Source: Streptomyces sp. NBC_01454 (GTDB taxonomy: Bacteria > Actinomycetota > Actinomycetes > Streptomycetales > Streptomycetaceae). From it: DNA of 64,000 nucleotides. Within the stretch, counting starts at the first letter, position 1; every line of letters begins with the position of its first letter. The notes under the pieces were generated by a model. That model saw only the letters and a program-made list of their open reading frames with translations. It made no database searches and was not told the origin of the DNA. The stretch lies in NCBI RefSeq assembly GCF_036227565.1, contig NZ_CP109460.1:7874001-7938000 (forward strand). Reading direction: 5' to 3'. Both the position numbers and the translations under genes were made by a program. This document shows, in pieces, positions 14,422 through 64,000 of this stretch.

Positions 14422-15276
14422 ATGCCCAGCCCCACCGTGTGGAATATCGTTTCGGACGCAGGATCCGACGCCGACACCGATATCGTGCTCGCGGCCGATT
14501 TCCCGGTGACGGGGAGGAACGAGGGTGGATTCGCCGATCTGGCGCCCGGTCTGAAGCTGGACTGCGATCTGTGGCAGACCGTCGCCCCGGTCCGCGACCC
14601 CGAGACCGAGGCCCTGGACGACAGCTACCTGGAGCCCTGGCTCTCCGAGGTGGCCGCATCCGGTCGCACGGTCCGCGCCGTGCTCGGCTACTGTGCGGGC
14701 TCCGTCTTCGCCGGCGTGCTCGCTGAGAAGATCGGCGCAAGGCAGCCGACCGCCCCCCGTGTGGTGCTGTTCGACCCCGAACTGGTCGATGTGCCCACCG
14801 TCCACCTCCAGTTCGGCCGGGTCATCGGCAACATGACCACCGTTCTGGCCTCGGAGGAGATAGCCGAGCTGTCCGGCGCCGCCGAGCGGCTCGCCGCGCA
14901 GCCCGACATCACCCCGGCCGCCTTCGCCGCCGGCCTGTACGCGGCCTTCCGCCCGATCGGCACCTCGGCGCTGCGGCGGGCCGGACTCGACGAGGACTAC
15001 GCCGGCGAACTGGTCCAGCTGGTCGGCTCGTTCATGTCCTACCTCGCCACCGCCGCCGGTCTCGACCCGCGCCCCGGCTGGAAGGGGGCCACGGTCGTCA
15101 CCTCCGCCAGTGCGACCAGCGGACTGAACCGGATGCGCACCACACCCGGCGTCGCCCCCATCGAGGTCGCGGACGAGCGGCGCTTCGAGGTCGAGCACCG
15201 GGACCTGCTGCGCACCCCCGCCATCGCCGAAGCCGTGGGCGGAGTCCTGGCAAGCCGCCCCGGGGAGCGCACGTGA
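14422..15276 (+). CDS. Cys-nucleophile alpha/beta-hydrolase, probable Dieckmann cyclase (KirHI/NcmC-like)
   Basis: 284-aa alpha/beta-hydrolase of thioesterase type. The nucleophile elbow is GYCAGS with Cys91 in place of the usual Ser; Asp118 (LFDPELVD) and His259 (EVEHRDLL) are placed to complete a Cys-Asp-His triad. That triad is the published hallmark of Dieckmann cyclases of the NcmC family, which release tetramic acid and pyridone products and include the kirromycin enzyme KirHI. Inferred role: cyclising release of the chain from the last PCP. First gene of the plus-strand operon, with ribosome site GGGGGA and a GTGA overlap into the NRPS gene. A type II proofreading thioesterase is the alternative, but Cys91 argues against it. 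Confidence 0.78.
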   Translation: MPSPTVWNIVSDAGSDADTDIVLAADFPVTGRNEGGFADLAPGLKLDCDLWQTVAPVRDPETEALDDSYLEPWLSEVAASGRTVRAVLGYCAGSVFAGVLAEKIGARQPTAPRVVLFDPELVDVPTVHLQFGRVIGNMTTVLASEEIAELSGAAERLAAQPDITPAAFAAGLYAAFRPIGTSALRRAGLDEDYAGELVQLVGSFMSYLATAAGLDPRPGWKGATVVTSASATSGLNRMRTTPGVAPIEVADERRFEVEHRDLLRTPAIAEAVGGVLASRPGERT

Positions 15277-18200
15277 GCGCCGAAGCCACGGCCGGCCCAA
15301 CGGCCGGCGAGGCGCAGGACGGCTCCGGCCGCGCGGCCGGTCGCGTACCGGCGAGCCGCAAGGAGACCACCCTCTGGCTCCTCGACGAGCTGGTCCCCGG
15401 CAGCGGCGCCAACAACCTGTCGCTGGCCCTGCGCGTGCGGGGCCGCCTCGACGCCGCCGCCACCGTGCACGCCCTGCGGCTCCTGACGGAGCGCTTCGAG
15501 GTGCTGCGCACGGTCTACCAGCGTGACGGCGCCGAGCTGACCAGGGCCGTCGTGCCGTCCCTGGCCGTCGGGCTGGAGGAGGCGGAGCACCGCGGCGGCG
15601 CGGAGGACGAACCGGCCGTCCTGACGGCCTTCGTGGCCCGCCCGTTCACCCCGGACGGCAGCCCCCTCGTACGCGCCCTGCTGCTGCACGGGCCGGACGC
15701 CGACGTGCTGTGCCTGGCCCTCCACCACGCCGTGTCGGACGTACAGTCGACGGCCATCCTGCGCGCCGAGTTCGTCGCCCTCTACGAGGCGGTCCTGGAG
15801 GGCGGCCACCCCGCCCCCGCCGAGGTGCCCGCCCTGCACGAGCCCGCACCGTCCCCCGAGAGCCTCGGCTACTGGCAGCAGCGCATGGCCGGCTTCCGCT
15901 CCTCGGGCCTGGAACTCCTCTGCGAGCAGCGCGACCAGCCCGTCACCACCCTCCAGGGCGACGAGGTCACCCACGTACTGTCGGCCGAGGCCCACGCGGT
16001 CGTACGCCGCCTCCAGCGCGAGCTGCGGGCGCCGGAGTCCGTCGTCCTCCTCACCGCCTACGCGGTCCTCCTCGCCGCGCACGGCGCCGGGCCCGACCTC
16101 ACCATCGGCTCGCCGGTCAACACCCGCCCCCGCAAGGCGGTGGACGCGGTCGGCTACCACAGTAACCTCGTCGTCCTGCGCCTGCTGCTGGACCGTGACG
16201 CCACCTTCCGGGACCTCACGGCCCGGACCCGGCGGACGTTCATGGAGGCGATGGCGCACAAGGACGTACCGACCGACGACGTGCTCGACATGGTCGAACG
16301 CGACGGCTCCGGCTGGCGCAACGCGCTGTTCAAGCACGTCTTCAACTACGTCCCCTTCGCCGAGGATCAGCGCACCTTCACCCTCGCCGGCGCCGAGGCC
16401 GAACTCCTCGTCGTCGAGAACGGCTTCAGCCAGTTCGACCTCGAGTTCTTCGTCTCGGCCAACCAGGAGACCGCCACCGTCCGCGCCGCGTTCTACACCG
16501 GGGTGCTGGACCGGTCGGACGTCGAACTGATGGTCCAGCGCTACGACGCCCTGCTGGTCGCGCTGGGTACCGGGGCGGACACCCCGATCGCCTCCCTGCC
16601 GTCCTGGTCGGCCCGCGACCACGAGGTCATCGACGCCGCCAACGCCACGGACCGCGCGATCGGCCTGCCGTCGGTGCTCACCGGCTTCGCCCGCCGCGCC
16701 GCCGCCGACCCCTCGGCCGTGGCCGTACGGGAGGGCGACCGCACGGCCACGTACGGCGGCCTGTGGTCCGCCGCCGTCGACACGGCCGCCCGGCTGGCCG
16801 AGGCCGGCGTACGCCCCGGCGACGTCGTCGCGCTCCTCCTGCCGCGTGGCGCAGCCCTGGCCGCCTCGGTGTTCGGCACCTGGCTCGCGGGCGCGGCCTA
16901 CCTGCCGCTCGACCCGAACCACCCCGTGGAGCGGCTGACCTACCAGCTCGACGACACGCGCGCCCGCGTCGTCATCGTCGGCGCCGGCATCACCGCCCCG
17001 GAGGGCCACGCCGCCGTCCCCGCCACCGACTGGGAGCAGGTGCCCCAGGTGCCGGTGGACGAGGCGGCGGTGAACGCCGACCCCGACGCCCTCGCGTACG
17101 TGATCCACACCTCCGGCTCGACCGGCAAGCCCAAGGGCATCCCGATCCGGCACGGCAGCCTCGTCAACCACATCGTCGACTACGCCGAACGCTTCGGCGT
17201 GGCCGGCTCCACGCGCCCCACCGGCTGGCTCAGCACCTACAGCTTCGACACCTCCTCGCTCGAACTGATGATGCCGCTGCTCCACGGCGGCCACACGGTG
17301 GTGCTCCCGGACGAGGCGCGCACGGACGGCACCCTGCTGGCGGCCGCCGTCACCGGCCACGACATCGGCCTGCTGCAGGCGACCCCCACGACGTGGCGGC
17401 TCGTCGCCCACCAGATCGCGGACGTGACGGCCGGACGCGTCCTGCTGACCGGTGGCGAACCCCTGCCCGCCGAACTGGCCACCCGGCTGCTCGACGCCGG
17501 CGCCGAACTGTGGAACGTCTACGGCCCCACCGAGAGCACGATCTGGGCGACCGCCGGCCGCGTACCGGCCGGCCACGGCGGAAGGGTCGATGTCGGCTCT
17601 CCCGTCGCCAACACCCGGATCTTCATCGCCGACCCGCACGGCAGGCCGCTCCCGGTCGGCCTCCGCGGAGAGCTGTGCGTCGCGGGCGTCGGCGTCGCCT
17701 CCGGCTACCACGAGCGGCCCGACCTGACCGCGGAACGCTTCGGCGAGAACGCCGAGTACGGGCGCTTCCACCGCTCGGGCGACGTGGCCCGTTGGCGCAC
17801 CGACGGCAGGATCGACCTGTTCGGCCGGATGGACCGGCAGGTCAAACTGCGCGGCAACCGGATCGAACCCGCCGAGATCGAGGCGGTCCTGCTCGCCCAC
17901 CCCGACGTCGAGGCGGCGGCCGTCGTGGTCGTCGGCGATCCCGGGGCGGACGGCTATCTGGCCGCGTTCGTCCGGGTCCCGTGCCGTCCCGAGGCCGTGG
18001 ACGAACTGTGGGACCACGCGCACGGGCAGCTCCCGCGCTCGGTCGTCCCACACCGGTTCATCGCCGTGGACGCCTTCCCCCGTACGGGCAGCGACAAGGT
18101 CGACCACCTGGCCCTCGCCGAACAGGCGGCCCGGCACTCCGGCCCGGCCGTCGGCGGCCACGGCGCAGACTCCGCCGCCGGGGCGCAGGACGACCTGACG

Positions 18201-18410
18201 GCCACCGTCGTCGGCCTGTTCGCCGAACTGCTCGACCGCAGCGACCTCGACGCCGGCGCGCACTTCTTCGCCAACGGCGGGCACTCGCTGCTGGCCGTCG
18301 CCCTCGCCCAGCGCATCAAGGACATCACCGGTGTCCGGCTCGCACTGACCGACGTGTTCGAGACGCCCACCCCCGCCGCCCTGGCCGACCGGCTGCGCCG
18401 GCTCGCCTGA
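15273..18410 (+). CDS. NRPS module C-A-PCP (KirB-like)
   Basis: 1045-aa single NRPS module. A condensation domain (about 30-450) has HHAVSDV at 151-157, so the HHxxxD core is intact but the usual final Gly is Val. Adenylation domain (about 470-960): TSGSTGKPKG, YGPTE, SGDVARW, and K in GSDKVDH. Reading specificity residues by eye against the GrsA alignment gives D-T-L-T-L-G-V-I-W-K, close to glycine-like codes, although the adjacent panD argues for beta-alanine as in kirromycin KirB. Carrier domain at the C-terminus with Ser in GGHSLL. No thioesterase, so release must be in trans, consistent with the upstream Dieckmann cyclase. GTG start overlaps the previous stop. Confidence 0.9.
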   Translation: MSAEATAGPTAGEAQDGSGRAAGRVPASRKETTLWLLDELVPGSGANNLSLALRVRGRLDAAATVHALRLLTERFEVLRTVYQRDGAELTRAVVPSLAVGLEEAEHRGGAEDEPAVLTAFVARPFTPDGSPLVRALLLHGPDADVLCLALHHAVSDVQSTAILRAEFVALYEAVLEGGHPAPAEVPALHEPAPSPESLGYWQQRMAGFRSSGLELLCEQRDQPVTTLQGDEVTHVLSAEAHAVVRRLQRELRAPESVVLLTAYAVLLAAHGAGPDLTIGSPVNTRPRKAVDAVGYHSNLVVLRLLLDRDATFRDLTARTRRTFMEAMAHKDVPTDDVLDMVERDGSGWRNALFKHVFNYVPFAEDQRTFTLAGAEAELLVVENGFSQFDLEFFVSANQETATVRAAFYTGVLDRSDVELMVQRYDALLVALGTGADTPIASLPSWSARDHEVIDAANATDRAIGLPSVLTGFARRAAADPSAVAVREGDRTATYGGLWSAAVDTAARLAEAGVRPGDVVALLLPRGAALAASVFGTWLAGAAYLPLDPNHPVERLTYQLDDTRARVVIVGAGITAPEGHAAVPATDWEQVPQVPVDEAAVNADPDALAYVIHTSGSTGKPKGIPIRHGSLVNHIVDYAERFGVAGSTRPTGWLSTYSFDTSSLELMMPLLHGGHTVVLPDEARTDGTLLAAAVTGHDIGLLQATPTTWRLVAHQIADVTAGRVLLTGGEPLPAELATRLLDAGAELWNVYGPTESTIWATAGRVPAGHGGRVDVGSPVANTRIFIADPHGRPLPVGLRGELCVAGVGVASGYHERPDLTAERFGENAEYGRFHRSGDVARWRTDGRIDLFGRMDRQVKLRGNRIEPAEIEAVLLAHPDVEAAAVVVVGDPGADGYLAAFVRVPCRPEAVDELWDHAHGQLPRSVVPHRFIAVDAFPRTGSDKVDHLALAEQAARHSGPAVGGHGADSAAGAQDDLTATVVGLFAELLDRSDLDAGAHFFANGGHSLLAVALAQRIKDITGVRLALTDVFETPTPAALADRLRRLA

Positions 18411-18432
18411 CGGAACCGAAAGAGACGCCCTC

Positions 18433-19434
18433 ATGGAAATCCTCAAGCTCGCCGTCGGCGGCTGGTTCGCCCGGGCCCTCGCGGTCGCCGCCCGCCTGGA
18501 GATAGCCGACATCCTCGACGGCGGATCGATGACCTCGGCCGAACTCGCCGAGCGCACCGAGACCGACCCCGACATCCTCCACCGCCTCCTTCAGATGCTC
18601 ACCGTGCCGGGAGTCCTGGAGCGCGACGGGGAGAAGTTCCGGCTGACCGAGGCCTACGCGCCGCTGCGCGCGGACCACCCCTTCACCCAGCGCCACTTCG
18701 CCATCCTCGCCGCCGAGTTGTACGACGACGCCTTCGCCGGCCTGATGCACACGGTGAAGACGGGCAAGTCCGGCTTCCAGGAGATCTTCGGGGAATCCCT
18801 CTACGGCTACCTGGAGACCCACCCCGAGACGGCGGACCTGTTCGACAAGGGCATGGTCGACCTGGCGACGCCGGTGGCTCAGGGCCTGCTCGGTCTGCAC
18901 GACTTCAGTGCCGTCAAGACGGTCGTCGACGTGGGCGGCGGGAGCGGCGGCCTGCTCCCCGGCCTGCTGGCCGCCCACTCGGACCTGCGCGGCACCGTCG
19001 CCGACCGGGCCAGCGTCTGCGCCAGGGGCCGCACGGCCCTGGAGCGGGTCGCGAAGGAGGACGTGCTCGCCCGCATCGAGTTCACCCCGAGCGACTTCTT
19101 CGTCGAGCTCCCCGCCGGAGCCGACCGCTACCTGCTGAAGAACGTGCTGCACGACTGGACGTACGAGAACTGCGTCCGGATCCTGCGCACCGTCGCCACC
19201 GCCATGGCTGACAGCCCCGCCGACGCCCGGCTGCTCGTCGTGGAGCCGCTGGTGGAGAACGACATCGACGGCTGGCGGGCGATGTTCCAGGCCGTGGCCT
19301 GCGACGAGGGCACCACCGGACTGGACGAGCCCGCCATGCGGCGCGCCCTCGAGGAGGCCGGCTTCGTCGTGGAGTCGGTCGGGCAACTGCCCACCCAGCA
19401 CAAGGTGTTCGAGTCCTCCCTGCGTGTCTCCTGA
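18433..19434 (+). CDS. SAM-dependent O-methyltransferase (family 2, dimerisation domain)
   Basis: 333-aa methyltransferase. The N-terminal winged-helix dimerisation domain (about 1-95: ARLEIADILDGG, LLQMLTVPGVLERDGEKFRLT) precedes a Rossmann fold with SAM motif VVDVGGGSGGLLPGL (about 163-177) and LLKNVLHDWTYENCVRIL, whose HDW is a typical catalytic motif of O-methyltransferase family 2. It sits 22 bp after the NRPS and shares a TGATG overlap with the AT-AT-ER gene. Inferred role: O-methylation of the product or an intermediate. Which hydroxyl cannot be told. Confidence 0.87.
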   Translation: MEILKLAVGGWFARALAVAARLEIADILDGGSMTSAELAERTETDPDILHRLLQMLTVPGVLERDGEKFRLTEAYAPLRADHPFTQRHFAILAAELYDDAFAGLMHTVKTGKSGFQEIFGESLYGYLETHPETADLFDKGMVDLATPVAQGLLGLHDFSAVKTVVDVGGGSGGLLPGLLAAHSDLRGTVADRASVCARGRTALERVAKEDVLARIEFTPSDFFVELPAGADRYLLKNVLHDWTYENCVRILRTVATAMADSPADARLLVVEPLVENDIDGWRAMFQAVACDEGTTGLDEPAMRRALEEAGFVVESVGQLPTQHKVFESSLRVS

Positions 19435-22733: not shown

Positions 22734-22811
22734 TCCCGAAGGGGCGGCGGAACCACGTACACAGCACCACCCGCACGATCGACATTCTCCGTAACGAGCG
22801 AGGCAGACCGC

Positions 22812-24071
22812 ATGACCGAAACCCCCACCACGGAACTCAGCACCGGATCCGACGACTTGGCGAGCGAGTTCGACCTGTCCGACCCGAAGTTCATCACCGA
22901 CCCGAAGGCGGGGGAGCGCTGGCTCGGCGGCCCCCGGCCCGTCTGCCGCGGGAAGTTCGCCGACGGCAGCGACGTCTGGGTGGTCACCGGACACCACGAC
23001 GTCAAGACGGTGCTCGGCGAGCCGACCCTGCGCAGCCGCCCGCCGGGCGACTCCCACCGCGAGAGCATGCTCAGCCGGGGCATCCCCGAGGACATCGTCG
23101 AGATGTTCGACTCCACCCTGCTGACCATGGACGGCGAGGACCACATGAGGGTCCGCCGCCTCGTCACCCGGGCCCTGTCCGCCCGGCGGATGCTGGCCCT
23201 GACCCCCGCCGTCGAACGCGTGGCGGAGCGCCTGCTCGACGGCCTCGCCGGCAAGGCCGAGCCCGACCTGATCGCGGACTACGCGCACCCGCTGGCCATC
23301 AGTGTCATCTGTGAACTCCTCGGCGTCGACGAGGAGTACCGCGAGCAGTGGCGCGCGTGGAGCGAGACCCTTGCCCAGGCCCTGCGCCCGAACCCCGAGC
23401 AGTTCGCCCCGGCCGTACGGGGCATGGCCCGGGTGACCCGGGAACTGATCGCCGCCCGCCAGGCCGACCCGCGCGACGACCTGATCTCCGAGCTGGTGCA
23501 GGTTCACGAGGAGGACAGCGACCGGCTGACCGACGACGAGCTGACCGCCCTGGCGATGGTCCTCGTACAGGCCGGCCACGAGACCGTCCGCAACCTCGTC
23601 GCCCTCGGGGTCTTCACCCTGCTCCAGCACCCCGATCAGCTGGAACTGCTGAAGAACGACCCCTCTCTCGGCAGCCGGGCCGTCGCCGAACTCGTGCGCC
23701 ACACCGCGCCGGTGAAGCACGCCTTCCGCCGCTTCGCCACCGAGCCCGTCGAGATCGGCGGGGTGAAGGTGCAGCCCGGAGAGGCCATCCAGGTAGCGCT
23801 GGCCGCCGCGAACCGGGACCCCGAGGTCTTCGAGGAGCCCGGACGCCTCGACGTCACCCGTGAGCAGAACCCGCACCTGGGCTTCGGCCGGGGCGCGCAC
23901 TACTGCCTGGGCGCCAGCCTCGCCCTGATCGAGGGGGAGGTCGCCCTGACCGCACTGTTCAAGCGGTTCCCGGACCTGTCGCTGGCCGTTGACCCGCAGG
24001 AGATCGAGCCGCGCTACCTGATGCCGATGCAGCGTCTTCCCGTCCGCCTGTCCCCGGAGAACGAGGTGTGA
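22812..24071 (+). CDS. Cytochrome P450
   Basis: 419-aa soluble bacterial P450. I-helix oxygen-binding motif QAGHETVRN, ExxR as ELVR, heme-binding loop GFGRGAHYCLG with the Cys ligand. GAGG lies just before the ATG at 22812. It stands 78 bp after the AT-AT-ER gene and overlaps the second P450. Inferred role: post-PKS or on-line oxidation (hydroxylation, epoxidation or ring formation) of the product; kirromycin clusters also encode P450s (KirOI, KirOII). Electron donors are not encoded in this window. Confidence 0.92.
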   Translation: MTETPTTELSTGSDDLASEFDLSDPKFITDPKAGERWLGGPRPVCRGKFADGSDVWVVTGHHDVKTVLGEPTLRSRPPGDSHRESMLSRGIPEDIVEMFDSTLLTMDGEDHMRVRRLVTRALSARRMLALTPAVERVAERLLDGLAGKAEPDLIADYAHPLAISVICELLGVDEEYREQWRAWSETLAQALRPNPEQFAPAVRGMARVTRELIAARQADPRDDLISELVQVHEEDSDRLTDDELTALAMVLVQAGHETVRNLVALGVFTLLQHPDQLELLKNDPSLGSRAVAELVRHTAPVKHAFRRFATEPVEIGGVKVQPGEAIQVALAAANRDPEVFEEPGRLDVTREQNPHLGFGRGAHYCLGASLALIEGEVALTALFKRFPDLSLAVDPQEIEPRYLMPMQRLPVRLSPENEV

Positions 24072-25276
24072 TGACCGACGGCCTTCCCACAGTCCCGGGT
24101 CTGCCGATGACCCGGGGCCGGTGCCCCTTCGACCCCGCACCCGAACTGGGCGTGCTCCGCGCGGACCACCCGGTCGCCCGCATGGAGTTCCCCGACGGGC
24201 ACGTGGGCTGGCTGGTCACCGGCTACACCCAGGTCCGCAAACTGCTGTCCGACCCCCGGATGAGCTCCCGGGGGGACGCGCTGCGCTCGCCCATCCCGCT
24301 GCCCATGGCGACGGACCGCACCGAGCCGGCCCCGGGCATGTTCACGGCGATGGACCCGCCGGAGCACACCCGCTACCGGCGGGCGGTGGCCGCCTGGTTC
24401 TCGGCGCGCCGCACCCGCACCCTCGAACCCCGGCTGAAGGAGCTCGCCGCCAGCCACCTGGACGCCATGGGCGCCGGCAAGGGTGAGGGCCCGGTCGACC
24501 TGGTGACGGGGTTCGCGGAGCCCATGGCTGCGTCGGCCATCTGCGAGCTGCTGGGCGTTCCCCTGTCGGAACGCCCGGCCTTCGCCCGGGCCATCAAGGC
24601 ACTCTTCGCCGTGCACTCCAGCGCCGAGGAGGCCATCGCCGGCTGGCACGCCCTCACCGGCCTGCTGCGCGGGCTGGTCGAGGCGAAGCGCGCCGAACCG
24701 GCGGACGACCTGCTCGCCACCCTCGTCACCGAGGGCCGGCTCACGGACGAGGAACTCGTCACGGTCGGCGCCGTACTGCTGACCGCCGGATACGACACCA
24801 GCGCGAACATGATCGCCCTGGGCACCTTCGCCCTGCTGGAGCACCCCGAGCAGTCGGCCGCGCTGGCCGCCGACACCTCCCTGGCCGAGAGGACGGTCGA
24901 GGAACTGCTGCGCTACCTCACGATCGTCCACGCGGGTGGCATCCGCGCCGTGGGCGAGGACCTGGAGTTCGAGGGACACCGGATGGCGGCCGGGGACGCG
25001 GTCTCGTTCTCTTTCGCGGCCGCCAACCGCGATCCGGTGCTTTGCGCCCTGCCGGACGAGCTGGACGTGACCCGCGAGCCCGTACCGCACCTCGCCTTCG
25101 GGCACGGCATCCACCAGTGCGTGGGCCAGCAACTCGCCCGGCTGGAACTGCGGGTCGCCCTCGAGGCCCTGTTCGGGCGCTTCCCGAGGCTACGCCTCGG
25201 CATTCCCGCCGCCGAGGTCCGCACCCGCCCGGACATGATCATCTACGGCGTCCAAGAACTACCGGTGACCTGGTGA
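24071..25276 (+). CDS. Cytochrome P450
   Basis: 401-aa P450. I-helix TAGYDTSAN, ExxR as ELLR, heme loop [11 protein letters not shown] with the Cys ligand. ATG at 24071 forms a TGATG overlap with the first P450; a GTG three bases earlier is equally possible. N-terminal [12 protein letters not shown] is typical of actinobacterial CYP families. The two P450s are not close copies (different I-helix and heme-loop residues), so they probably oxidise different positions. A GTGA overlap with the following frame keeps the operon tightly packed. Confidence 0.92.
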
Positions 25277-25287
25277 ACGGAGCGAAC

Positions 25288-25707
25288 GTGCTGTACCGAG
25301 AGATGTTCAAGTCCAAGATCCACCGTGCCACGGTGACCCAGGCGGACCTGCACTACGTGGGCTCCGTCACCATCGACTCCACGCTGATGGCCGCCGCGAA
25401 CCTGCTGCCCGGCGAAAAGGTCGACATCGTCGACGTCGACAACGGGGCCCGCCTCAGCACCTACGTCATCGAGGGCGAGGCCGACAGCGGGGTCATCGGC
25501 ATCAACGGCGCCGCGGCCCACCTCATCAACCCCGGCGACCTCGTCATCATCATCTCCTACGCCTCCATGAGCGAGGAGCACGCCCGCTCGTACCAGCCGA
25601 GCGTGGTGTTCGTCGACGGCGACAACCGACCCGTCACGACCCGCACCGACCCCGCCGACGTACCCGACGGATTCGGCCTGGTGCGCGGCGACACCGTCAG
25701 TGCCTGA
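25288..25707 (+). CDS. panD: Aspartate 1-decarboxylase, beta-alanine supply
   Basis: 139-aa PanD-type pyruvoyl enzyme: L-aspartate to beta-alanine and CO2. It matches the family from the start ([20 protein letters not shown]), with the self-cleavage pair Gly25-Ser26 in YVGSVTID and the conserved [12 protein letters not shown] and DLVIIISYA segments. GTG 25288 is chosen because GGAG lies 5 nt upstream and the family begins there; an upstream GTG at 25273 overlapping the P450 stop is possible. A second panD inside an antibiotic operon implies beta-alanine as a building block. Kirromycin KirD is the precedent; the acceptor would be the NRPS at 15273. Confidence 0.92.
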
Positions 25708-25734: not shown

Positions 25735-26694
25735 ATGAGTGCCAGCCCTGATGTCATGACCGCCTTCACCAGCGGTCTCGCGGACATCAACCTCGACGAG
25801 TCCGGCACCGCCCGCCGCGGCGCGAACGCCACCGGCATGAAGTCCGCCAGCGCCACCATCTACGACATGGCCGCCACGCTCTCCGGCCACGGGGCCCTGT
25901 GGAACTGGGGTATGCACGACCCCGCGCTCGTCGAGGAGATCCGCGCCCGCGTGCCCGGCTTCGGCGAGCCCTGGACCGACGGCTTCAGCGAGCAGCTCTA
26001 CTTCCTCGCCCTGCGCGAACTCCCCATCGACCTGGACGACTACGCCGGCCGCCACGTCCTGGAGGTCGGCTGCGGCATGGGGGAGGGCCTCAACTTCCTC
26101 TCCCGCGTCGCCCCCGGCGCCGGCATGACCGGCCTGGACCTGTCACCGAAGGCCGTCGCACGGGCCACCGCCACCCTGTCCCGCGGGGACGCGCTCACCT
26201 TCGTGCACGGCGACGCGGAGGACCTGCCCTTCGAGGACGGCTCCGTCGACGTGCTCGTCAACATCGAGAGCTCGCACACCTACCCCGACCTCGCCAAGTT
26301 CCTCGCCGAGGCCGCACGCGTGCTGCGCCCCGGTGGCTTCCTCAGCCACATCGACGTCTACACCCGGCAGCGCACGGAGACCATGCGGCGCACGGCGGAG
26401 GAGACCAAGGGCCTGGAGTGGACGGCCGACCACGACATCTCGGACCGGGTCCGTGCGGCCGTCCGCCGCCGGATGGCACCCGGCAGCCACTTCCGCACCA
26501 CCCTCGGCAAGCAGCGCATGAACCCGCTGGTGCGCCAGATCGCCGCGCACAGCCAGATCCTCATGTTCGGCGGCATGTTCGCGGGCTACCAGCCGCCGCC
26601 CGCCATCAAGGCGCTCAGCAAGCTGGGCATCGTGCCGTGGATGAACGGCCTGCCGATGGAGAGCTACCGCCACCGGATCGCCGTCCGCCGATGA
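25735..26694 (+). CDS. Class I SAM-dependent methyltransferase
   Basis: 319-aa methyltransferase of the UbiE/type-11 group. SAM-binding motif HVLEVGCGMGEGLNFL at about 105-120, acidic residue in LDLSPKAV, HGDAEDLPFEDGSVDV and a post-motif RVLRPGGFLSHID. Ribosome site GGAGACCC precedes the ATG. It is unlike the first methyltransferase of the operon (no dimerisation domain), so a second methylation is expected. N-methylation of the ring, as in aurodox versus kirromycin, is an attractive guess but unsupported by any sequence motif. It follows panD by 27 bp. Confidence 0.85.
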   Translation: MSASPDVMTAFTSGLADINLDESGTARRGANATGMKSASATIYDMAATLSGHGALWNWGMHDPALVEEIRARVPGFGEPWTDGFSEQLYFLALRELPIDLDDYAGRHVLEVGCGMGEGLNFLSRVAPGAGMTGLDLSPKAVARATATLSRGDALTFVHGDAEDLPFEDGSVDVLVNIESSHTYPDLAKFLAEAARVLRPGGFLSHIDVYTRQRTETMRRTAEETKGLEWTADHDISDRVRAAVRRRMAPGSHFRTTLGKQRMNPLVRQIAAHSQILMFGGMFAGYQPPPAIKALSKLGIVPWMNGLPMESYRHRIAVRR

Positions 26695-28132: not shown

Positions 28133-28310
28133 TCAGGCGGCGCCGACCGGAGCAGCGGTGAGGCCGTACAGACCCGACTCCCGGCGCAGCACCCCGACGT
28201 CGACGAGGGCCCGACGCAGTGACAACGCGTCGAGGACACCGCTCTCGCACCACGGCTCCAGACGCTCCGTCACCGTGCGCTCGTCGTACTCCTCGCCCGG
28301 GGTGCGGGGA
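28133..28310 (-). pseudogene. DUF2087-like C-terminal fragment
   Basis: Minus-strand frame ending at 28133-28135 reads EEYDERTVTERLEPWCESGV and continues SLRRALVDVGVLRRESGLYGL. This matches DUF2087, a small helical domain often fused behind DNA-binding domains, where ALVDxGxLxRxxGxY is conserved. It lacks its own start and upstream domain and lies immediately downstream of a truncated DUF6204-like frame, so it is a decayed piece. Confidence 0.55.
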
Positions 28311-28490
28311 TCAGCACGCGGAGGTGAACCCGTGCAGCCCGCGCTCGTAGTTCACCGTGCCCTCCTCGGTGAACCGGGCGCTGAGCACGCCGTGGTCGCC
28401 GACCTGGGCGAGCAGCGCCACGCGCTGCTCCTCGTCGAGGGGCGCGAACTTGCCCCGGGTGAGGACCCGGTAGGTCGTACTGCTGCTCAT
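28311..28490 (-). pseudogene. Short DUF6204-like protein, apparently truncated
   Basis: 59-codon frame from ATG 28490 to TGA 28311-28313: YRVLTRGKFAPLDEEQRVAL, then ARFTEEGTVNYERGLHGFT. This resembles the N-terminal half of DUF6204 proteins, normally about 100 residues; the second half (beta-rich, ending before a C-terminal helix) is missing and DUF2087-like sequence follows in another frame. The start may still be translated, but the fold is probably incomplete. Confidence 0.5.
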
Positions 28491-28548
28491 GATGGCCGGT
28501 CTCCAGACGTGGTTCGCCGGTTCGACCGGTCGTCAGGGGCGGGGCGCA

Positions 28549-30225: not shown

Positions 30226-30911
30226 GGGTTCTTCTCCAGGTTCTCTGTCGGGGGTTCGGCGGCAGGTGCCGCGGTGGGTCCGGCAGCGGTTGCGGTGCTG
30301 CGGGCGAGTGCGGTCCAGGACTTCATGAGGAGTTCCACCACGTCCACGACGGAGTCCGTGCCGCTGTCGGAGGGGAAGAGCACGCGCTGGATGGACAGCC
30401 CGTCGTCCAGCGCGTGCACGATCAGCGCCAGGAGCTCCACGGGCGCCGGCGTGGTCACGCCGCGCGCGGCGAAGCCCTGCTCCAGCGACTGGGCGATCGC
30501 GTCCCGGGAGCGGCGCTCGCGGTTCGCCAGTACGGGCAGCAGCTCCGGGTCGCGCAGTCCGTAGAGCCAGAGTTCGGTGCGCAGGGCGAGCCAGCTGGCG
30601 AGGTTCTCGTCGCGCCGGCGGTGCCAGGAGCGGAGGTGGGCGAGCATCTCCTCGAAGGTGGCCGCCTCGCGGCTCAGCGCCTGGATCTCTTCCAACTCGT
30701 GTTGGGTCCGCTGTTCGAGCAGGGCGAGGACGAGCTCGTGCTTGCCCTCGAAGTTGCCGTAGAAGGCGCCCCGGGTGTAGCCGGCGGCCTCGACGATCTG
30801 CTCCACCGAGGTTCCGCTGACCCCCTGGCCGGCGAAGAGTGCGGCCGCCGACTGAAGGATCTGGTCGCGGGTGACCTGCCGGCTCTGCTGCCGGGTAAGT
30901 CGCTTGGTGAT
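30222..30911 (-). CDS. TetR-family repressor with apparent AUC start codon
   Basis: About 229-aa TetR regulator. The HTH domain reads RDQILQSAAALFAGQGVSGT, then SVEQIVEAAGYTRGAFYGNF, a complete match to the family. The C-terminal ligand/dimer domain is helical. The only in-frame GTG (30806) would remove half of the HTH. Upstream there is no in-frame ATG, GTG or TTG; AAGGAGG (30920-30926) lies 8 nt before an ATC at 30909-30911, followed by natural-looking TKRLTRQQSR. I therefore place the start there. Autoregulation is likely through the symmetric operator just upstream. Coupled by ATGA to the exporter. A sequencing error turning ATG into ATC is the main alternative. Confidence 0.82.
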   Translation of the reverse strand: MTKRLTRQQSRQVTRDQILQSAAALFAGQGVSGTSVEQIVEAAGYTRGAFYGNFEGKHELVLALLEQRTQHELEEIQALSREAATFEEMLAHLRSWHRRRDENLASWLALRTELWLYGLRDPELLPVLANRERRSRDAIAQSLEQGFAARGVTTPAPVELLALIVHALDDGLSIQRVLFPSDSGTDSVVDVVELLMKSWTALARSTATAAGPTAAPAAEPPTENLEKNP

Positions 30912-30936
30912 GGTGATCGCCTCCTTGACGCGCTTC

Positions 30937-30974
30937 CAGATACAAGACTGTATTCCAATACGAAGTTGTATCTG
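30937..30974. promoter_or_regulatory. Symmetric TetR operator upstream of tetR-exporter operon
   Basis: 38-bp two-shell palindrome centred between 30955 and 30956. Outer arms CAGATACAA (30937-30945) and TTGTATCTG (30966-30974); inner arms GTATT (30950-30954) and AATAC (30957-30961). It can also be read as two 14-bp ATAC-n6-GTAT boxes back to back, the arrangement expected for two TetR dimers. It sits 11 bp upstream of the ribosome site, and minus-strand elements TTCAGA and TACAGT with 18-bp spacing overlap it, so binding would block transcription. Confidence 0.8.
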
Positions 30975-31158
30975 AAATGAATTAAGGGAAGGCGGCGGCC
31001 GTGCTGCGGGCGCGCATGCGAAGGGGCTGACACCAGTGCCCGAAGGCGTGGTGGCAGCCCGTGACCGAGCGGCAGGGGCGGGCGGAGGCCGGCCCCGGGA
31101 CCCGGAAGCGGTTGAGGGCGTCGAGGTGCCGGGCCCGCAGTTCGTGGTCGCGGTTGGC
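30975..31158. other. Intergenic DNA between tetR promoter and HipA-like relic
   Basis: About 180 bp with no supportable gene. The first 15 bases are AT-rich (AAATGAATTAAGG), upstream of the operator on the minus strand. The rest reads antisense as an Arg/Pro/Leu-rich continuation past the stop of the HipA-like relic. Confidence 0.4.
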
Positions 31159-32847: not shown

Positions 32848-38841
<5,994 letters not shown>

Positions 38842-38897
38842 CCCGGCGCGGCCGGGCCGATCACGCCCCCGCATCGCCGACCACCAGGAGAGAACAC

Positions 38898-52186
<13,289 letters not shown>

Positions 52187-52190
<4 letters not shown>

Positions 52191-55100
52191 GCACCGACCT
52201 GCGTGAACTGCTGGCGGCGATCGCCTCCGGCAAGCTGTCCGGCGAAGTGGCCGAGCTGCTGGTACGGGGCCTGGTCGACGCGACTGCTCCGGCCGCCGCA
52301 CCCGCCCCGGCCGCGCCCGCGGCCGCCGCCCCGGAGGCGCCCACCGGGCCCTACCCACTCAGCCGCGGGCAGGCCGCACTGTGGGCCCTGCACGCCGACG
52401 ATCCGCAGACCGTCTCCTACAACCTGCCGCTGGGCCTGTGGCTCGGGCAGGACGTACAGGAGGACCGGCTCGTCGAGGCGCTGGCCGCGATGGTGCGCAG
52501 GCACCCGGAACTGGGGATCTCCGTACGCTTGGACGCCTCGGGGCCCGTCCAGGAGGTCACCGGCCGCGCCCCGGAGGTGACCCGCCTGGACCTCGGCCAC
52601 GTGACCGACGGGGAGTTCGCCGCCCGCGTGCGCAACCTGGTTCGCCGCCCGTTCGACCTGGAGCAGGACCCGCTGTACCGGATGTGGCTCGTCGCCGCCC
52701 CCGGCGGCGCCACCCTGCTGCTCCTGGTCTTCCACCACCTGATCACCGACGGGGTCTCCAGCCATCTGCTGCTGCGCGACATCGTCGCCTGCCACGACGC
52801 GCTCGCCCAGGGCCGTGAGCTGCCGCCGGTCGAACCCGCCGCGTCCTACGCCGAGTTCGTGGAGTGGCAGCGGACCATGCTCGCCGCCCCGGAGACGGAG
52901 GAACACCGGCGCTGGTGGCTCGATCGGCTGACCGGTGCCTCCACGGCGCCGGTCCTGGACGCGCTCGCCGACCGCCGGCGCACCGGATCCGGCTCGCACA
53001 CCCGCGGCGAGATGGTGCAATTGCGGCTCCCGCACGCCACCTGGGCGGCGGTCCAGGACACCGCCCGTGCAGGCGGGCTGACGCCCTTCAGCGTCGTGCT
53101 CGGTGCCTTCCTCGCACTGCTGCACCGCCACTCGGGACACCGCGACCTCAGCGTGATGGTGCCGACCGACGGCCGTCCCGCGCAGCGCTTCGACCGCACC
53201 GTCGGCTACCTGATCAACCCGGTGGTCCTGCGCGTGGACTGCGACCCCGACCACAGCTTCGGCGAGCTCACGGCCGCCGTCGGAGCCCGGATGGCGGAGG
53301 CCGAGGAGCACAGCGCGTACCCCTTCGCCTCCGTCGTCGACCACCTGCGCCGCACGACCGGCACCGCGGCCGGCTTCGACATCGGCTTCTACCTGCAGCA
53401 GGGAGTCGGCGGCGACCAGGACATGGCGGCCGGGCAGACCGTCTTCCGCGACGCGCTCGACCTGACCCAGGAGGGCGAGAACGACCTCGTCGTCGAGGTG
53501 GTCGTGCGCGACACCGGCGTGCTCCTCTACCTCAAGTACGACCCGGAGCGCTTCGACCGCTCCACCGTCGAACGGCTGGCCGAGCACTACCGGCTGCTGC
53601 TGGACACGGTGACGGCCGATCCCTCCGTACGCCTCGGGGACCTCGATCCCGCCACCCCCGCCGAACGCCGCACGGTCGAGCGGTCCAACACCACCCGCGC
53701 CGAACGGCCGCGCGACGTCACCGCCGCCGACCTGGTGCTCGCCCGCGCCCGGCGCGACCCCGGGCGCACCGCCGTCGTCGACGCGACGGGCTCGCTGACC
53801 TACGGGGAACTCGCCGGGCAGGTGCACGCCCTTACCCGGATCCTCACCGAGCACGGGGTACGCCCCGGCGACGTCGTGGGCGTCCTCGTCGCTCGCCGGG
53901 CCGCGCTGATCGTGGCCCTCCTCGCCGTCCAGAGCGCGGGAGCCGCCTACGTCCCCCTCGACCCGGACTTCCCGGCGGCCCGGCTCGCCCACATCACCGC
54001 CGACGCGGCACCCACCGCCGTGATCGTCGATCCGCACCTGGCCGACCGGCTGCCCGCGGACGCACCGGGCGTGCGCGTCCCCCTGACCGGCCTGGAGTCC
54101 GAGGCGCAGACCGTCGCCCCGGTCGCCCGCCGCGACGACGACCTCGCGTACGTCCTCTACACCTCCGGATCCACGGGCGAGCCCAAGGGCGTCGAGGTCT
54201 GCCACGGCAACCTCGTCAACCTGCTGGCCGCGACCGCCGAGCGGCCCGGCTGCTCCGAGGACGACACCCTGCTGGCGGTGACCACCGCCGGGTTCGACAT
54301 CTCGGGTCTGGAGCTGCTGCTCCCGCTGACCCGGGGCGCCACCGTTCACATCGCGCCCGAGGACGTGGTGCGGGACGGGTTCGCGCTGGCCGATCTCATC
54401 GGCGACGCCGGCGCGACGGTCGTCCAGGCCACCCCGGCCACCTGGGAGATGCTGCTGCACGCCGGCTGGATCGGACGCGTGCGCAGGCTGCTGTGCGGCG
54501 GCGAGGCCCTCACCGCCGAACTCGCGGACCGGTTGCTGGACCGGTGCGACGAGCTGTGGAACATGTACGGGCCGACCGAGACGACCATCTGGTCCTCCGC
54601 CCAGCGGATCCGGCGGGGCGGACCGGTCACCGTGGGCACCCCGCTCGCCAACACCACCTTCCGCACCGCCGGTCCCGACGGCGCCCCTGTGCCCTTCGGC
54701 GCGGTCGGTGAACTGCTCATCGGCGGCGACGGCGTCGCCCGCGGCTACCGGGGCAAGCCGGAGCTGACCGCCGAGCGCTTCGTGCGCGATCCGGCGACCG
54801 GCGAACGGCTCTACCGCACGGGCGACCTCGCCCGCTGGTCGGCGGACGGGGACATGGTGCTGCTCGGGCGCGCCGACCGTCAGGTCAAGCTGCGCGGCCA
54901 CCGCATCGAACTCGGCGAGATCGAGGCCGCCGTCCGGCGCGCCGGAGCGGCGGGCACCGCCGACGGCGTCGGCGACGTCCGGGTGGCCGTACGCGAGGAC
55001 CAGCCCGGGCAGCCGCGTCTGGTGGCCTTCGTCCAGGCCGGCCCGGAGGCCGCAGAGGCCGCGGTCGGGCGGATCCGGGCCTGGCTGCCCGAATACATGG

Positions 55101-56869
55101 TCCCCTCCCGCACGGTCGCGCTGGCGCGCTTCCCCCTGACCCCCAACGCCAAGGTGGACACCGGCCCGCTGACGCGCCTGCCCATCGAGGAACTCGTACG
55201 CCGCTTCGGACACGAGGACCGCTCCGCCCCACCGCAAGGGGAAGTCGGCCTCCGGCCAGAGCCGGCCGGCCCCGCAGACCTCGCGGAACGGCTGCGCCGG
55301 AGCGCGGCGGCCGTCGCCGGGCTGCCTGCCGAGGAGATCCCCCTCGACCGGCCGCTGGGCGAGGTGGGCTTCGACTCGATCGGCTTCACCCGCCTCGCGG
55401 TGGCGCTGCGCGAGCGGTTCGGCGTCACGGTGCGCCCGACCGTCTTCTACGCCCGCCCGGACCTCACCTCGCTGGCTGCCCACCTGAGCGCGGCCCACCC
55501 CGAGGTGTTCGCCGCGACGGACCGCCGGCCCACCACTCGGACCGTGTCCGAGCCGATGGTCGCGGCGCCCGCCGCGCCGCACGGATTCGCGCCGGTGGCC
55601 ATCGTGGGCATCGGCGGACGGCTGCCCTCCGCCTCCGGCCTGGAGGAGTTCTGGCAGCACCTCGCCGCCGGACGCGACCTCACCCGGCCGTACCCCATGG
55701 AACGGGGCTTCTCCGCACGGGTGTTCCCGCAGGGCCTGCGCGGCTCCTTCGTCGAGGACGTGGACGCCTTCGACGCGGCGCTCTTCCGCATCTCCCCCCG
55801 GGAAGCGGCGCAGATGGACCCCCAGCAGCGCCTGCTGCTGCACGCCGCGCACGAGGCCGTGCTCGACTCAGGCCAGGTCCCGGGCGCGCTCGCCGGCAGC
55901 CGCACGGGGGTGTTCGTCGGACTGAGCGGCACGGACTACCTGAGCCTGCTCGGACCGGGCTCGCCGGAGATGGGCGACCACTTCCTGATCGGCAACGTCC
56001 CCTCGATCGCAGCCAACCGCATCTCCTACGTGTTCGATCTGCACGGCCCCAGCGCCGTCTTCGACACGGCCTGCTCCAGCTCGCTCGTCGCCGTGCACCG
56101 CGCGGCCCGCGCGCTCCAGCAGGGGGACTGCGACATGGTCCTGGCCGGCGGGGCCAACCTCCTGCTGTCCCCGCACGGGTTCACCGGCCTGCGGCGGGCC
56201 GGGATGCTCAGCCCCGACGGCCGCTGCAAGACCTTCGACGAACGTGCCGACGGCTATGGCAGGGGCGAGGGCGTGGTACTCCTCGCCCTCAAACTGCTCG
56301 ACCGGGCCCTGGCCGACGGAGACCCGGTGCACGGCGTGCTGATCGGCTCGGCGGAGAACCACGGTGGGCACACCCACTCGCTCACCGTCCCCAACCCGCA
56401 GGCGCAGCGCGACGTCGTGCTCGCCGCACACCGGTCGGCCGGGGTCGCGCCCGACACGATCGACTACATCGAGGCGCACGGCACGGGGACCCCACTCGGC
56501 GACCCGATCGAGATCGACGCCCTCAAGGAGGCGTTCGGCCGCCTGTACGCCGACTGGGGGATCCCGGTGGTTCCGGGACGCACCGGCCTCGGGTCGGTCA
56601 AGACGAACATCGGCCACCTGGAGGCCGCGGCGGGCGTCGCCGGCGTCGTGAAGGTCCTGCTGGCGATGCGTCACCGCATGCTCCCCGGCCTGGTGGACCT
56701 GCGGACGCCGAATCCGATGCTCGACCTCGACGGCAGTCCGTTCCGGATCCAGGCCGCAGCACAGACATGGGAAACACGCGAGGGGACACCGGCCCGGGTC
56801 GGCGTCAGCTCGTTCGGTATGGGAGGCAGCAACGTGCACGTGGTAGTCGAAGAGGCGGGACAGCGTTGA
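52187..56869 (+). CDS. AIII: NRPS-PKS hybrid C-A-PCP-KS (glycine-like)
   Basis: 1560-aa hybrid. An N-terminal helical docking segment (DLRELLAAIASGKLSGEVAE) pairs logically with the AII tail. Condensation domain about 50-485 with intact HHLITDG (His183-184, Asp188). Adenylation about 505-1015 (TSGSTGEPKG, YGPTE, TGDLARW, NAKVD); specificity residues read by eye: D-I-L-A-L-G-M-I-W-K, which resembles glycine codes. PCP about 1025-1105 (GFDSIGF). KS6 about 1135-1560, Cys1296 in DTACSSSLV; histidines in HGTGT and GHLEAAAG present. It would join an amino acid to the AII chain by an amide and pass it on. Kirromycin KirAIII has the same plan with glycine. Stop overlaps AIV (TGATG). Confidence 0.92.
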
Positions 56870-62800: not shown

Positions 62801-64000
62801 TCACCGCGGCGGGCGAACCCGTGGCCAACCCGTACGCGGCCGGCCTGCACGGCCTGGCCCTGTCGCTGGCCCAGGAACACCCCCGCTGGCAGGTCGCCGT
62901 CGTTGACCGCTCCTCCGCCGACGCGCCTTCCGCAGACGTGCTCGACGCCCCCGCCGGCGGCCCCTACGCACTGCGCAGCGGCGTGCTCCTCCACCGCCGG
63001 CTCGTCCCGGTCGCCGTCACGCCCCCGCAGGAGCGGATCCGCCGGGACGGCACCTACCTGATCCTCGGCGGGGCCGGGGGCATCGGCCTGGAACTCACCG
63101 AATGGCTGGTGCGCGGCTACCGGGCGAAGGTCGTCCTCCTCGGCCGCAGCGAACTCGACGCCGAGCGCCGCGCACGGCTGCGCGCCATCGACCCGGATGG
63201 CACCCTCGTCTCCTACCGCAGGGCCGACGCGACCGACCCCGCCGCGCTGCGGGAGGCCGTCGAGTGGACCCGGAGCGCCCACGGCGCCCTGCACGGCGTC
63301 TTCCACGCCACGATCGTCCTGCGCGACCAGACCGTCGCCACGATGACCGAGGAGACCTTCCGCTCCGTCCTCGACGCCAAGGCGCACACCTCGGTCGCCC
63401 TGCACGCCGCCCTGCGCGGCGTGGGCGGCCTGGACTTCGTCCTGTTCTTCTCCTCGGCGGTCGCCCTGTCCGGCAGCGCCGGCCAGGGCAACTACGCGGC
63501 CGGATCCACCTTCGAGGACTCCTTCGCCCACCACCTCGACCGGATGCTCGCCGCCCGGGTGGCCGTCATCAACTGGGGCTACTGGGGGACCGTCGGCATC
63601 GTCGCCGACGAGCGCTACCGCGAGCGGCTCGCCGCCACCGGAATCCACTCGATCACCCCGGAGGAGGGGATGGCCGCCGTGCACGCCGTGCTCGGACGCG
63701 AGGACCGCCAGGTCGTCGTGGTCAAGGCCGACGCGGCCGCACTCGCCGCGGTCGGCGCCCAGCCGCGCAGGGCCGCCGGGCAACCGGCCGGCCCGGACAC
63801 CACCACGTCCGGCACGGGAACGCCGTCCGGCACGGGAACGCCGTCCGACACGGGGACGCCCACCGACGACGTGGCCCTGGTGCCGTCGCTGGCCCAGCTC
63901 CCCCCGGTCGCCCGGCTGCTCACCGAGGCCGACGACGCCCGCCTGACCGAGGTCATGTGCGACTGGCTGTGGACGCTCTTCCGTCGCGAAGGGGTCTTCC
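56869..64000 (+). CDS. AIV: trans-AT PKS, truncated by window end (DH-KR-ACP / KS-DH-KR-cMT...)
   Basis: At least 2377 codons, open at the right edge. It starts with a post-KS linker (LVLLSADGPEQLARYRAEL), so it completes KS6 of AIII. Domains: DH about 158-415 (RDHALGRIRILP), KR about 583-800 (VLVTGGAGALGRR, Tyr in DYAYAN), ACP about 855-925 (GIDSLLIMD), KS7 about 984-1405 (Cys1148 in DTMCSSSLT), DH about 1568-1830 (GHRLGETRLLP, an off-register Gly in the HxxxGxxxxP motif), KR about 2058-2275 (LILGGAGGIGL, YAAGS). The last 40 residues (DARLTEVMCDWLWTLFRREG) resemble the N-terminus of the AII C-methyltransferase. Two DH-KR sets predict a polyene segment. A 3x18-bp repeat lies at 63808-63861. 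Confidence 0.92.
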   Translation, partial: MSGTTEDRTARLVLLSADGPEQLARYRAELCTWLDEHPSASLDAVAHTLRVGREPLRERVALVVGSVAELAARLRDGERLVTGTATAGAAAASGGGAGPVATDDPAEAARLWVTGQDVVLPEPSGDRPARLSLPLPPLQTRRYWIKPPAGLADGPGERLLTGEEFYLRDHALGRIRILPAVAALEFAVAAAEQAGHGRATGIVNVLWARPVLVEDEPARVRLHLAPTADGVSYEVRLTDGSAEGALCSAGTLRFGAGPEAPRLVLDAIRARLPRTATAEECYEVFGALGGGYGPSLQGLRSVRSAPGEVLAYVAVPAAADLPFSDFALHPSLLDAMLQACLWTDEDPSAPRARELPFSLDAVEIFGPLPEQGHVHAVRTPAGHDIALADDEGRVRLRLRAVVTRPVDGAARLDGTIGAHLLVQRWQDAPAPAAGRTVRTLVLGEESFTGAERATGDSVFPRDEELLLVHTADGDPLPALTGLYRSWAAQPTRHPVRVLHVFRTSGGVGDARAEALDGFARALANEDPQFLVSVVDAGTAGLAATVESEARAAHAFRVRYTAAGRQVPRWEPVSPDPAPLAPRGTVLVTGGAGALGRRLVAHLGGDARYVLTGRSAQADLTELRSAGLDVHYIPADLGAPGAAGDLVERIHGSFGPLHGVLHLAGTTRDALLIGKTDQQSAAVLGPKVRGTIELDRATAGDPLDFFIAFSSMSGAAGSPGQTDYAYANRFLDAFTAWRRGSGRPGRSLSVLWSLWADGGIRVDADEAAAARMARQVGLVAMPTDAGLEAFDRALGHEGDHVLVAHGNLARLREVLDAPAPSAPSAPSVPAPRAVPSAPSAPSIPSAEPAAPAPDAAEEFLRGVLAEVFEYPAEEMAADAPFERFGIDSLLIMDLTRRLEDHFGSLPKTLFFEYQDLRSLAGWFTEHHGSRLAELAPATEPVTATEPVTEPEPVPRAAGPAELVAAAPAVLAAAAAAPAPAPSGPMPIAIVGVAARFAESDTLDQFWDHLQAGRDLITEIPADRWDWRDYDQATPADRAARYSRWGSFLRGVDMFDPLFFGVSPREAEIVDPQERLFLQTAWHAMENAGRTRADLRSHRVGVYVGAMYGLYQLHEAEDGRIGASSHASIANRVSYTLGLTGPSLGVDTMCSSSLTAIHLAVRDLRAGDTDMAVAGGVNLHVHPYKYRFLGQGSFTSSDGRCRSFGADGDGYVPGEGVGAVLLRPLADAVRDGDHIHGVILGTSVNHGGRTNGFTVPNPVAQGNLVAQALGEAGVDPATLGYLEAHGTGTALGDPVEIRGLARALAEAGLPPGSLPIGSVKSNVGHLESASGMAGLCKVLLQMRHGRLVPSLHADPLNPNIDFDSTPLHVQRDLAPWPRPDGAPRRAGLSSFGAGGANAHVVVEEYIAPPAAGQEPGPYLFPLSTRVPERLPVLAAELADALERGLADGSSPRLVDVAFTLQHGREEWADRMVVLASSVTELVARLRGEDPAGVWAGHARGRAASRAAAPTGSDPASIGAAWAAGAPVTWPAGNGSRVPLPGYPFEELRCWLTDAIWSPPVPAAPAAGRTAAGPVHPLLDAIDPAESLDGLTYRTAFDPEHPYIGGHRLGETRLLPAAAVLEMARAAAEAAGAGERLRLSNVRWLRPFVVAGAERTARTRLRRGDTGTRFDLRDETGELLAEGRVEPLSAPAGESLDIDAVRARLGSHHEGGALYADLTAAGLFYGPALRAVESIAAGDGEALVRLRIPAEAARFAGSALHPSVVDGALHAFAVLRDRDNGPAMVPYALTAAEIHAPVTDLGYAYVRTVGTDRYDLTLTDSEGNVHVRLRDLSLRPAPGVAPARPTGAPAAAAVSAGAAAVADDLMFAPRWTELPGRSPQPLPDGATTWLVHGPDSAPLAAALRARLGGAVVALDHDRVTTATGRPDHVILLAPRAAGGTDDTAALEAAQERGVLALFRLAKVLQRTRSAVRLTVVTEDALTAAGEPVANPYAAGLHGLALSLAQEHPRWQVAVVDRSSADAPSADVLDAPAGGPYALRSGVLLHRRLVPVAVTPPQERIRRDGTYLILGGAGGIGLELTEWLVRGYRAKVVLLGRSELDAERRARLRAIDPDGTLVSYRRADATDPAALREAVEWTRSAHGALHGVFHATIVLRDQTVATMTEETFRSVLDAKAHTSVALHAALRGVGGLDFVLFFSSAVALSGSAGQGNYAAGSTFEDSFAHHLDRMLAARVAVINWGYWGTVGIVADERYRERLAATGIHSITPEEGMAAVHAVLGREDRQVVVVKADAAALAAVGAQPRRAAGQPAGPDTTTSGTGTPSGTGTPSDTGTPTDDVALVPSLAQLPPVARLLTEADDARLTEVMCDWLWTLFRREGVF
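63808..63861 (+). repeat. Three 18-bp tandem repeats in KR-cMT linker of AIV
   Basis: Unit TCCGGCACGGGAACGCCG at 63808-63825 and 63826-63843, with a three-base variant at 63844-63861. In frame it encodes Ser-Gly-Thr-Gly-Thr-Pro units in a flexible inter-domain linker. Confidence 0.9.

Follow-up and report, generated by a model that had tools for sequence, protein, structure and literature searches.

What does the large polyketide synthase (PKS) and nonribosomal peptide synthetase (NRPS) cluster of Streptomyces sp. NBC_01454 make, and can the member of its antibiotic family be named? The stretch considered here (the window, 64,000 nucleotides) is C1:7874001-7938000 of the 9.46-Mb genome, in which this copy of the cluster sits on the chromosome (C1, an 8.36-Mb contig); flanks were added, and 133 kb were read as one piece. 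A first-pass annotation made from the letters of the window had predicted an elfamycin (kirromycin-like) cluster from its module order, and had held that the member could not be told. The elfamycin identity is supported by gene-for-gene homology, one-to-one ketosynthase (KS) matches, a KirHI-type cyclase, a KirCII-type acyltransferase (AT) and the adenylation-domain code of AurB. The second statement appears too cautious, as gene content, together with near-identity to a cluster that bears the factumycin label, points to that compound or a close congener. Overall, the cluster is read from its sequence as that of a kirromycin-class elfamycin of the factumycin type with complete core genes, to which a probability of about 0.82 is assigned.

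Core genes run from 14,422 to ~92,719 in window numbering. In a DNA comparison, homology to the cluster of S. globosus LZH-48 begins at ~14075 and ends at 92725, which puts the cluster at ~78 kb. The open reading frames scanned upstream (two-component genes, a VTC-domain protein, an MFS transporter and a cyclophilin) and downstream (a CobW-type GTPase, urease alpha, inositol monophosphatase, LysR and zinc dehydrogenase) look unrelated. All gene elements listed in the first-pass annotation were found, i.e. the cyclase, C-A-PCP, AT-AT-ER, stand-alone AT, PanD, two P450s, phosphopantetheinyl transferase (PPTase) and exporter. Many of the percentages below refer to the cluster of another genome, G228, which appears to be kirromycin-type given a cyclase at 95% to S. 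collinus P0019 and a fitting gene content. The genes predicted to build the pyridone end, together with the PKS, are as follows.

14422..15276, plus strand: Dieckmann cyclase of the KirHI/FacHI type, predicted to release the chain as a 4-hydroxy-2-pyridone (NcmC family, PDB 6e6t, E 2.9e-49; 76% to S. collinus P0019).
15273..18410, plus strand: NRPS C-A-PCP of the KirB/AurB type (Pfam), adding beta-alanine by homology.
25288..25707, plus strand: aspartate 1-decarboxylase PanD (KirD), predicted beta-alanine supply (PF02261, E 7e-50; 79% to G228).
32773..38841, plus strand: PKS AI, load ACP, KS-KR-ACP, KS (Pfam; start probably near 32848 by homology; 68% to G228).
38897..52190, plus strand: PKS AII, DH-ACP-KR, KS-KR-MT-ACP, KS-KR-ACP, KS-ACP (start estimated from S. 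globosus gene spacing; 66% to G228).
52187..56869, plus strand: NRPS/PKS AIII, C-A-PCP, KS (70% to G228).
56767..76491, plus strand, past the window end: PKS AIV, DH-KR-ACP, KS-DH-KR-MT-ACP, KS-ACP, KS-KR-ACP, KS-KR-ACP, KS (start probably near 56869).
76488-83444, beyond the window: PKS AV, DH-ACP-KR, KS-DH-KR-ACP, with an extra weak ACP match ahead of the DH.
83441-92719, beyond the window: PKS AVI, KS-AT-DH-KR-ACP, KS-AT-ACP (two cis-AT modules).

Module order was determined with Pfam on segments divided at each KS start, the KS positions being taken from a profile search; simple DH and ACP motif scans overlook many domains and were not used. The predicted order was borne out, with the AIII KS seen only by the profile search and by its match to G228, and with the KS-DH-KR of AIV inside the window and its MT-ACP past 64000. 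Cys-His-His was kept in 14 of 14 KS. The A-domain code of AIII, read by eye with the last K assumed, is DILQLGMIWK, which we take to be a glycine code. The AT motifs of AVI are YASH and then VAFH (YASH and TAFH in G228), presumably of the methylmalonyl and malonyl type, respectively. The PKS genes past 64000 end in KS-AT-DH-KR-ACP and KS-AT-ACP, followed by the beta-alanine-type NRPS, i.e. a pyridone ending of the kind expected from the module-based prediction. These AVI modules would lead to an alpha-methyl alkene and then a beta-keto unit, beta-alanine and Dieckmann closure, presumably the pattern of the kirromycin pyridone end. Separately, the N-terminus of AI (32773-33789, first 339 residues) matched no Pfam family, and many matches to the KS/KR stretch of AIV at C1:126387-253588 suggest another large modular PKS locus in the same genome.

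The goldinonic-acid half of the molecule is common to the elfamycin family, the pyridone-less phenelfamycin/L-681217 type included, and a product of that type would share it. This candidate is contradicted by the cyclase, PanD and beta-alanine-type NRPS, and is regarded as hardly credible; no thioesterase was found in the PKS pieces scanned with Pfam, a scan that left the AIII KS piece outside, whereas the L-681217 cluster is described as having a thioesterase and no Dieckmann cyclase (PMC4979870). The Cys, Asp and His of the cyclase and of NcmC align, these being the triad residues given in PMC4979870, where FacHI of the factumycin cluster is described as a close KirHI homologue. The A-domain code of B, DTLQLGVIWK (again by eye, last K assumed), is the string given for AurB (PMC9361827). 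For kirromycin, PMC5818483 describes incorporation by KirB of beta-alanine made by KirD, pyridone closure by KirHI and KirAVI as the sole cis-AT PKS; the cluster agrees on the KirB/KirD, KirHI and KirAVI points.

Comparison with related clusters also drew on the acyltransferases, export and accessory genes, as follows.

19434-22733, plus strand: trans AT-AT-ER of the KirCI type (two AT stretches and PfaD-type TIGR02814; 72% to G228).
26728-28077, plus strand: stand-alone AT of the KirCII type, ethylmalonyl transfer by homology (PF00698, E 2.5e-78; 66% to G228).
28151..28490, minus strand: remnants of the DUF2087 and DUF6204 genes of the S. globosus cluster (fragments 129-179/181 and 1-56/111).
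28549-30225, minus strand: MFS exporter, FacT orthologue (PF07690; 93.9% to the S. globosus protein encoded at the facT feature).
30222..30959, minus strand: TetR-family regulator, start set by homology (PF13977/PF00440; 94% to the S. globosus homologue).
31138..31440, minus strand: HipA-family gene fragment, probably the kirHIV counterpart by length (residues 66-166 of 249, 77%).
31690-32562, minus strand: Sfp-type PPTase of the KirP type (PF17837, PF01648; 63% to G228).

KS grouping was checked by best match against G228 as the one kirromycin-type cluster, not by tree: each of KS1-KS14 found the same-numbered KS (14/14) at 79-88%, the next best being at 51-65%. In a tblastn of 18 genes against 160 kb of G228, 16 had homologues at 63-79% (HI, B, CI, OII, D, M, CII, MFS, TetR, P and AI-AVI), the best piece covering 4804 of 6574 residues of AIV and 2819 of 3092 of AVI, and the OI-type P450 matched at 52% with its best match outside the CI-D interval. 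G228 differs in having a crotonyl-CoA carboxylase/reductase (CCR) at 76386-77723, a KirHVI-like protein at 75240-76100 and its tailoring genes in a different arrangement.

The cluster labelled factumycin, on the S. globosus LZH-48 plasmid NZ_CP030864.1, is much closer: the fetched part is collinear with the window cluster in eight long blocks at 89-93% DNA identity and two short edge blocks at 87%, with ~7.5 kb outside the comparison and AII and AIII compared as DNA blocks rather than as proteins. Of the proteins compared, 16/21 align over at least 89% of their length at 84-95%. The DUF2087, DUF6204, ccrA (29 codons) and HipA-family (101 residues) genes of S. globosus are present in the window only as fragments, and its DUF3037 gave no match. 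The S. globosus exporter is annotated facT (97.5% identity); no relative of that name was found in the best 120 of 3566 relatives of the window exporter, and the frames 28489-29868 (plus strand) and 28487-29893 (minus strand), which matched no Pfam family, were rejected in favour of the gene at 28549-30225 (minus strand). The S. globosus cluster lies within 28927-110037 of a 562-kb plasmid typed as mobilizable, and the copy in the window is chromosomal. The KirCII-type AT is conserved at 53-97% across eleven loci (L010-L020), and in a tree of CI and CII the nearest relatives were S. kronopolitis, Streptomyces sp. ISL-94, CB00455, G-G2, SM11 and S. globosus, the window pairing with S. kronopolitis at a support of 0.989. 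The cluster comparison suggested at the outset yields collinearity with S. globosus and homology to G228; aurodox was compared by its published table.

The tailoring genes bear most directly on which member is made, and are as follows.

18433..19434, plus strand: AurM*-like methyltransferase, predicted pyridone N-methylation (PF00891 and PF08100).
22812..24071, plus strand: P450 of the KirOI type, 5,6-desaturation of the pyridone by homology (Pfam; 52% to the G228 P450 at 79004-80218).
24068..25276, plus strand: P450 of the KirOII type, tetrahydrofuran/C-16 oxidation by homology (Pfam; 67% to the P450 lying between CI and D in G228).
25735..26694, plus strand: O-methyltransferase of the KirM type (methyltransferase Pfam matches; 75% to G228).

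The AurM*-like gene lies between B and CI, the slot of aurM* in the Table 1 order of PMC9361827, so that the likeness is positional; no relative named AurM* was found in the best 120 of its 149 relatives, and no match to it was found at E 1e-20 in 160 kb of G228, where the B and CI frames overlap by four bases. AurM* is assigned to pyridone methylation in PMC9361827. The negative scan reported there places aurodox at m/z 793 and kirromycin at 795, and N-methylation should add 14 (computed 809.42), so the ion assignment underlying this function deserves a second look. Assignments given in PMC5818483 are C-30 hydroxylation for KirHVI, the 5,6 double bond for KirOI, O-methylation for KirM, and the tetrahydrofuran ring with C-16 oxidation for KirOII. 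The loci of S. roseoverticillatus and S. klenkii (L014/L015) carry a KirOI-type P450 in the CI-panD region and no KirOII-type P450 in the fetched locus; given the kirOII deletion phenotype (PMC5818483), a kirrothricin-like product without the tetrahydrofuran ring would be expected from them.

No KirHVI was seen in the 133-kb region, where the best E was 0.012, and searches of the window's own genome, the S. kronopolitis genome, the G-G2 genome and the S. globosus plasmid returned 0 matches each; the control, G228, gave a 100% self-match. Kirromycin or aurodox proper had to be considered, as the modules and core genes are those of the kirromycin-type cluster, and the aurodox cluster of S. goldiniensis, compared by published description (PMC9361827), is tabulated as B-M*-CI-OII-D-M-CII (an order read here as that of the genes) and would share the B-M*-CI neighbourhood if the AurM*-like gene corresponds to aurM*, along with the same B A-domain code. 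However, KirHVI makes the C-30 hydroxyl of kirromycin (PMC5818483), and aurHVI is listed for aurodox together with aurN and, reportedly, no PPTase (PMC9361827), whereas the window has a KirP-type PPTase and neither HVI nor an intact N; the kirromycin-type cluster of G228, for its part, has no M* gene. These two products were set aside as very improbable since KirHVI was not found. The AurM*-like methyltransferase, the missing KirHVI and the near-identity to the S. globosus cluster instead make factumycin or a close congener the most likely product, and the compound is probably already known. The published factumycin ion ([M+Na]+ 801.4302, PMC5785472) fits C44H62N2O10, i.e. kirromycin + CH2 - 2 O, in line with N-methylation, a missing C-30 hydroxyl (one oxygen, as KirHVI was not found) and one further missing oxygen.

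Under the factumycin-type reading, the left half would be built by a trans-AT PKS supplied with malonyl units by KirCI and ethylmalonyl units by KirCII, glycine would be inserted by an NRPS module, and further trans-AT modules with the two cis-AT modules would extend the polyene with its terminal alpha-methyl and beta-keto unit. Beta-alanine would then be added by an NRPS module and the chain released by the cyclase as a 4-hydroxy-2-pyridone, and the gene content predicts KirM-type O-methylation, two P450 steps, AurM*-like N-methylation and no C-30 hydroxylation. We infer that the target is EF-Tu, the product binding it and holding EF-Tu:GDP on the ribosome, and that self-protection may combine the FacT exporter with a host EF-Tu1 carrying Thr375.

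The residue of the host EF-Tu1 supports this target. The main EF-Tu (EF-Tu1, C1:4629682) carries Thr at the position that corresponds to E. coli 375; A375T in Salmonella tuf genes is described as a recessive kirromycin-resistance mutation (PMC5485169), and mining for elfamycin producers has made use of A375T (Yarlagadda 2020, as cited in PMC8625390). Thr375 was found in 6/11 Streptomyces with a KirCII-type AT (the window genome, S. kronopolitis, S. roseoverticillatus, S. klenkii, S. netropsis and NBRC 110611), and in M. rubida and Saccharopolyspora NFXS83 Ala375 goes with Gln or Glu at 160. In a background sample with one copy read per genome (the L126 copy, from G023, being an atypical second one), Ala375 was found in 29/30 genus genomes, the exception being G018 with Thr375. 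Among the 29 best-scoring other EF-Tu loci by locus DNA (241 genomes scored and 151/392 not, with some of the 29 also in the background sample), Thr375 was found in five and Ala375 in 24, including all nine with the highest bit scores, and of the five genomes with Thr375 only S. klenkii (G060) carries a close KirHI-type cyclase. Position 160 is His in a second, divergent EF-Tu (C1:634067) and in 5/6 other EF-Tu3-like copies read, the copy of G-G2 having Asn; EF-Tu3 of S. coelicolor is cited as kirromycin-resistant and the S. collinus EF-Tu as sensitive (PMC6804068).

Several points weigh against the factumycin-type reading. The label reaches the window through S. globosus LZH-48, which is listed with factumycin in PMC9290621, and not through the prototype WAC5292. 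Gene content, by way of KirHVI, predicts the loss of one oxygen only, and the second is tentatively attributed to the KirOII-type P450. If that P450 adds both oxygens as in kirromycin, the product would be another N-methylated elfamycin, N-methyl-30-deoxykirromycin (C44H62N2O11), with which the AurM*-like enzyme and the missing KirHVI agree; the KirOII orthologue of the window is full length at 67% to that of the kirromycin-type cluster, and the kirOII deletion product is described as lacking the tetrahydrofuran ring and two oxygens (PMC5818483). The near-identity to the S. globosus cluster extends to both P450s (93% and 89%), and this alternative is considered rather unlikely.

Further, Ala375 was found in 5/11 Streptomyces carriers of a KirCII-type AT (ISL-94, CB00455, G-G2, SM11 and G228), and four sampled Streptomyces (G018, G035, G051 and G219) show Thr375 with no KirHI-like cyclase matching at E 1e-40. 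A tight tie of Thr375 in EF-Tu1 to the cluster is weakened by G018 and the other such genomes, and the residue supports rather than proves the target.

The cluster has also lost its own CCR, of which the following remains.

31081..31167, minus strand: CCR (kirN/ccrA) 29-codon stub (residues 422-450 of 450 only, 72%).

With the in-cluster gene gone, CCR genes outside the cluster must be relied on for the ethyl side chain, and two homologues were found elsewhere in the genome (82% and 71%, with no stop in aligned residues 1-443); CCR genes lie at C1:1464461 and C1:8278291. Deletion of kirN lowered kirromycin in S. collinus, although polarity on kirHVI also affected that mutant, which made 30-deoxy-kirromycin, leaving the contribution of kirN itself less clear; kirHIV and kirHV deletions had no effect (all as given in PMC5818483). 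An elfamycin congener whose C-28 side chain is altered, reflecting the lost ethylmalonyl-CoA source, would account for the stub and would suit the lowered yield of the kirN mutant, but seems improbable alongside an intact and strongly conserved KirCII-type AT and the two chromosomal homologues. In related clusters, CCR is whole as annotated in S. globosus, and SM11, S. roseoverticillatus and S. klenkii keep it open over nearly all of its length; G-G2 has it in two frames, a frame change divides it in ISL-94, and the CB00455 gene is split, with a stop and a gap inside it. In S. kronopolitis it was not found in the same comparison. Most of the compared genomes are drafts, so single frame changes in CCR may be sequencing errors.

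A possible explanation for these trends is that, in the lineage of the window genome and S. kronopolitis, functions of the antibiotic genes are passing to the host, with CCR lost stepwise and replaced by chromosomal CCRs, the main EF-Tu gaining an A375T-type residue, and the product perhaps drifting, e.g. at the C-28 side chain; this scenario is offered as a doubtful one, though less so than the alternative structures above. The EF-Tu loci of the window genome and S. kronopolitis are 98% identical, and since the nine best-scoring genomes have Ala375 and no cyclase above 75% to P0019, Thr375 looks to have been gained in this lineage.

Factumycin or a close congener being the preferred assignment, interest in the compound itself is modest, as nearly the same cluster is present in several sequenced strains. 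A 78-kb cluster is dereplicated to a known antibiotic class with its likely member named, so that no effort need be spent on a presumed new compound, and the EF-Tu1 residue provides an independent hint of the target. With its graded loss across the related clusters, CCR provides a natural experiment on whether a dedicated extender-unit supply is required for KirCII-type loading.

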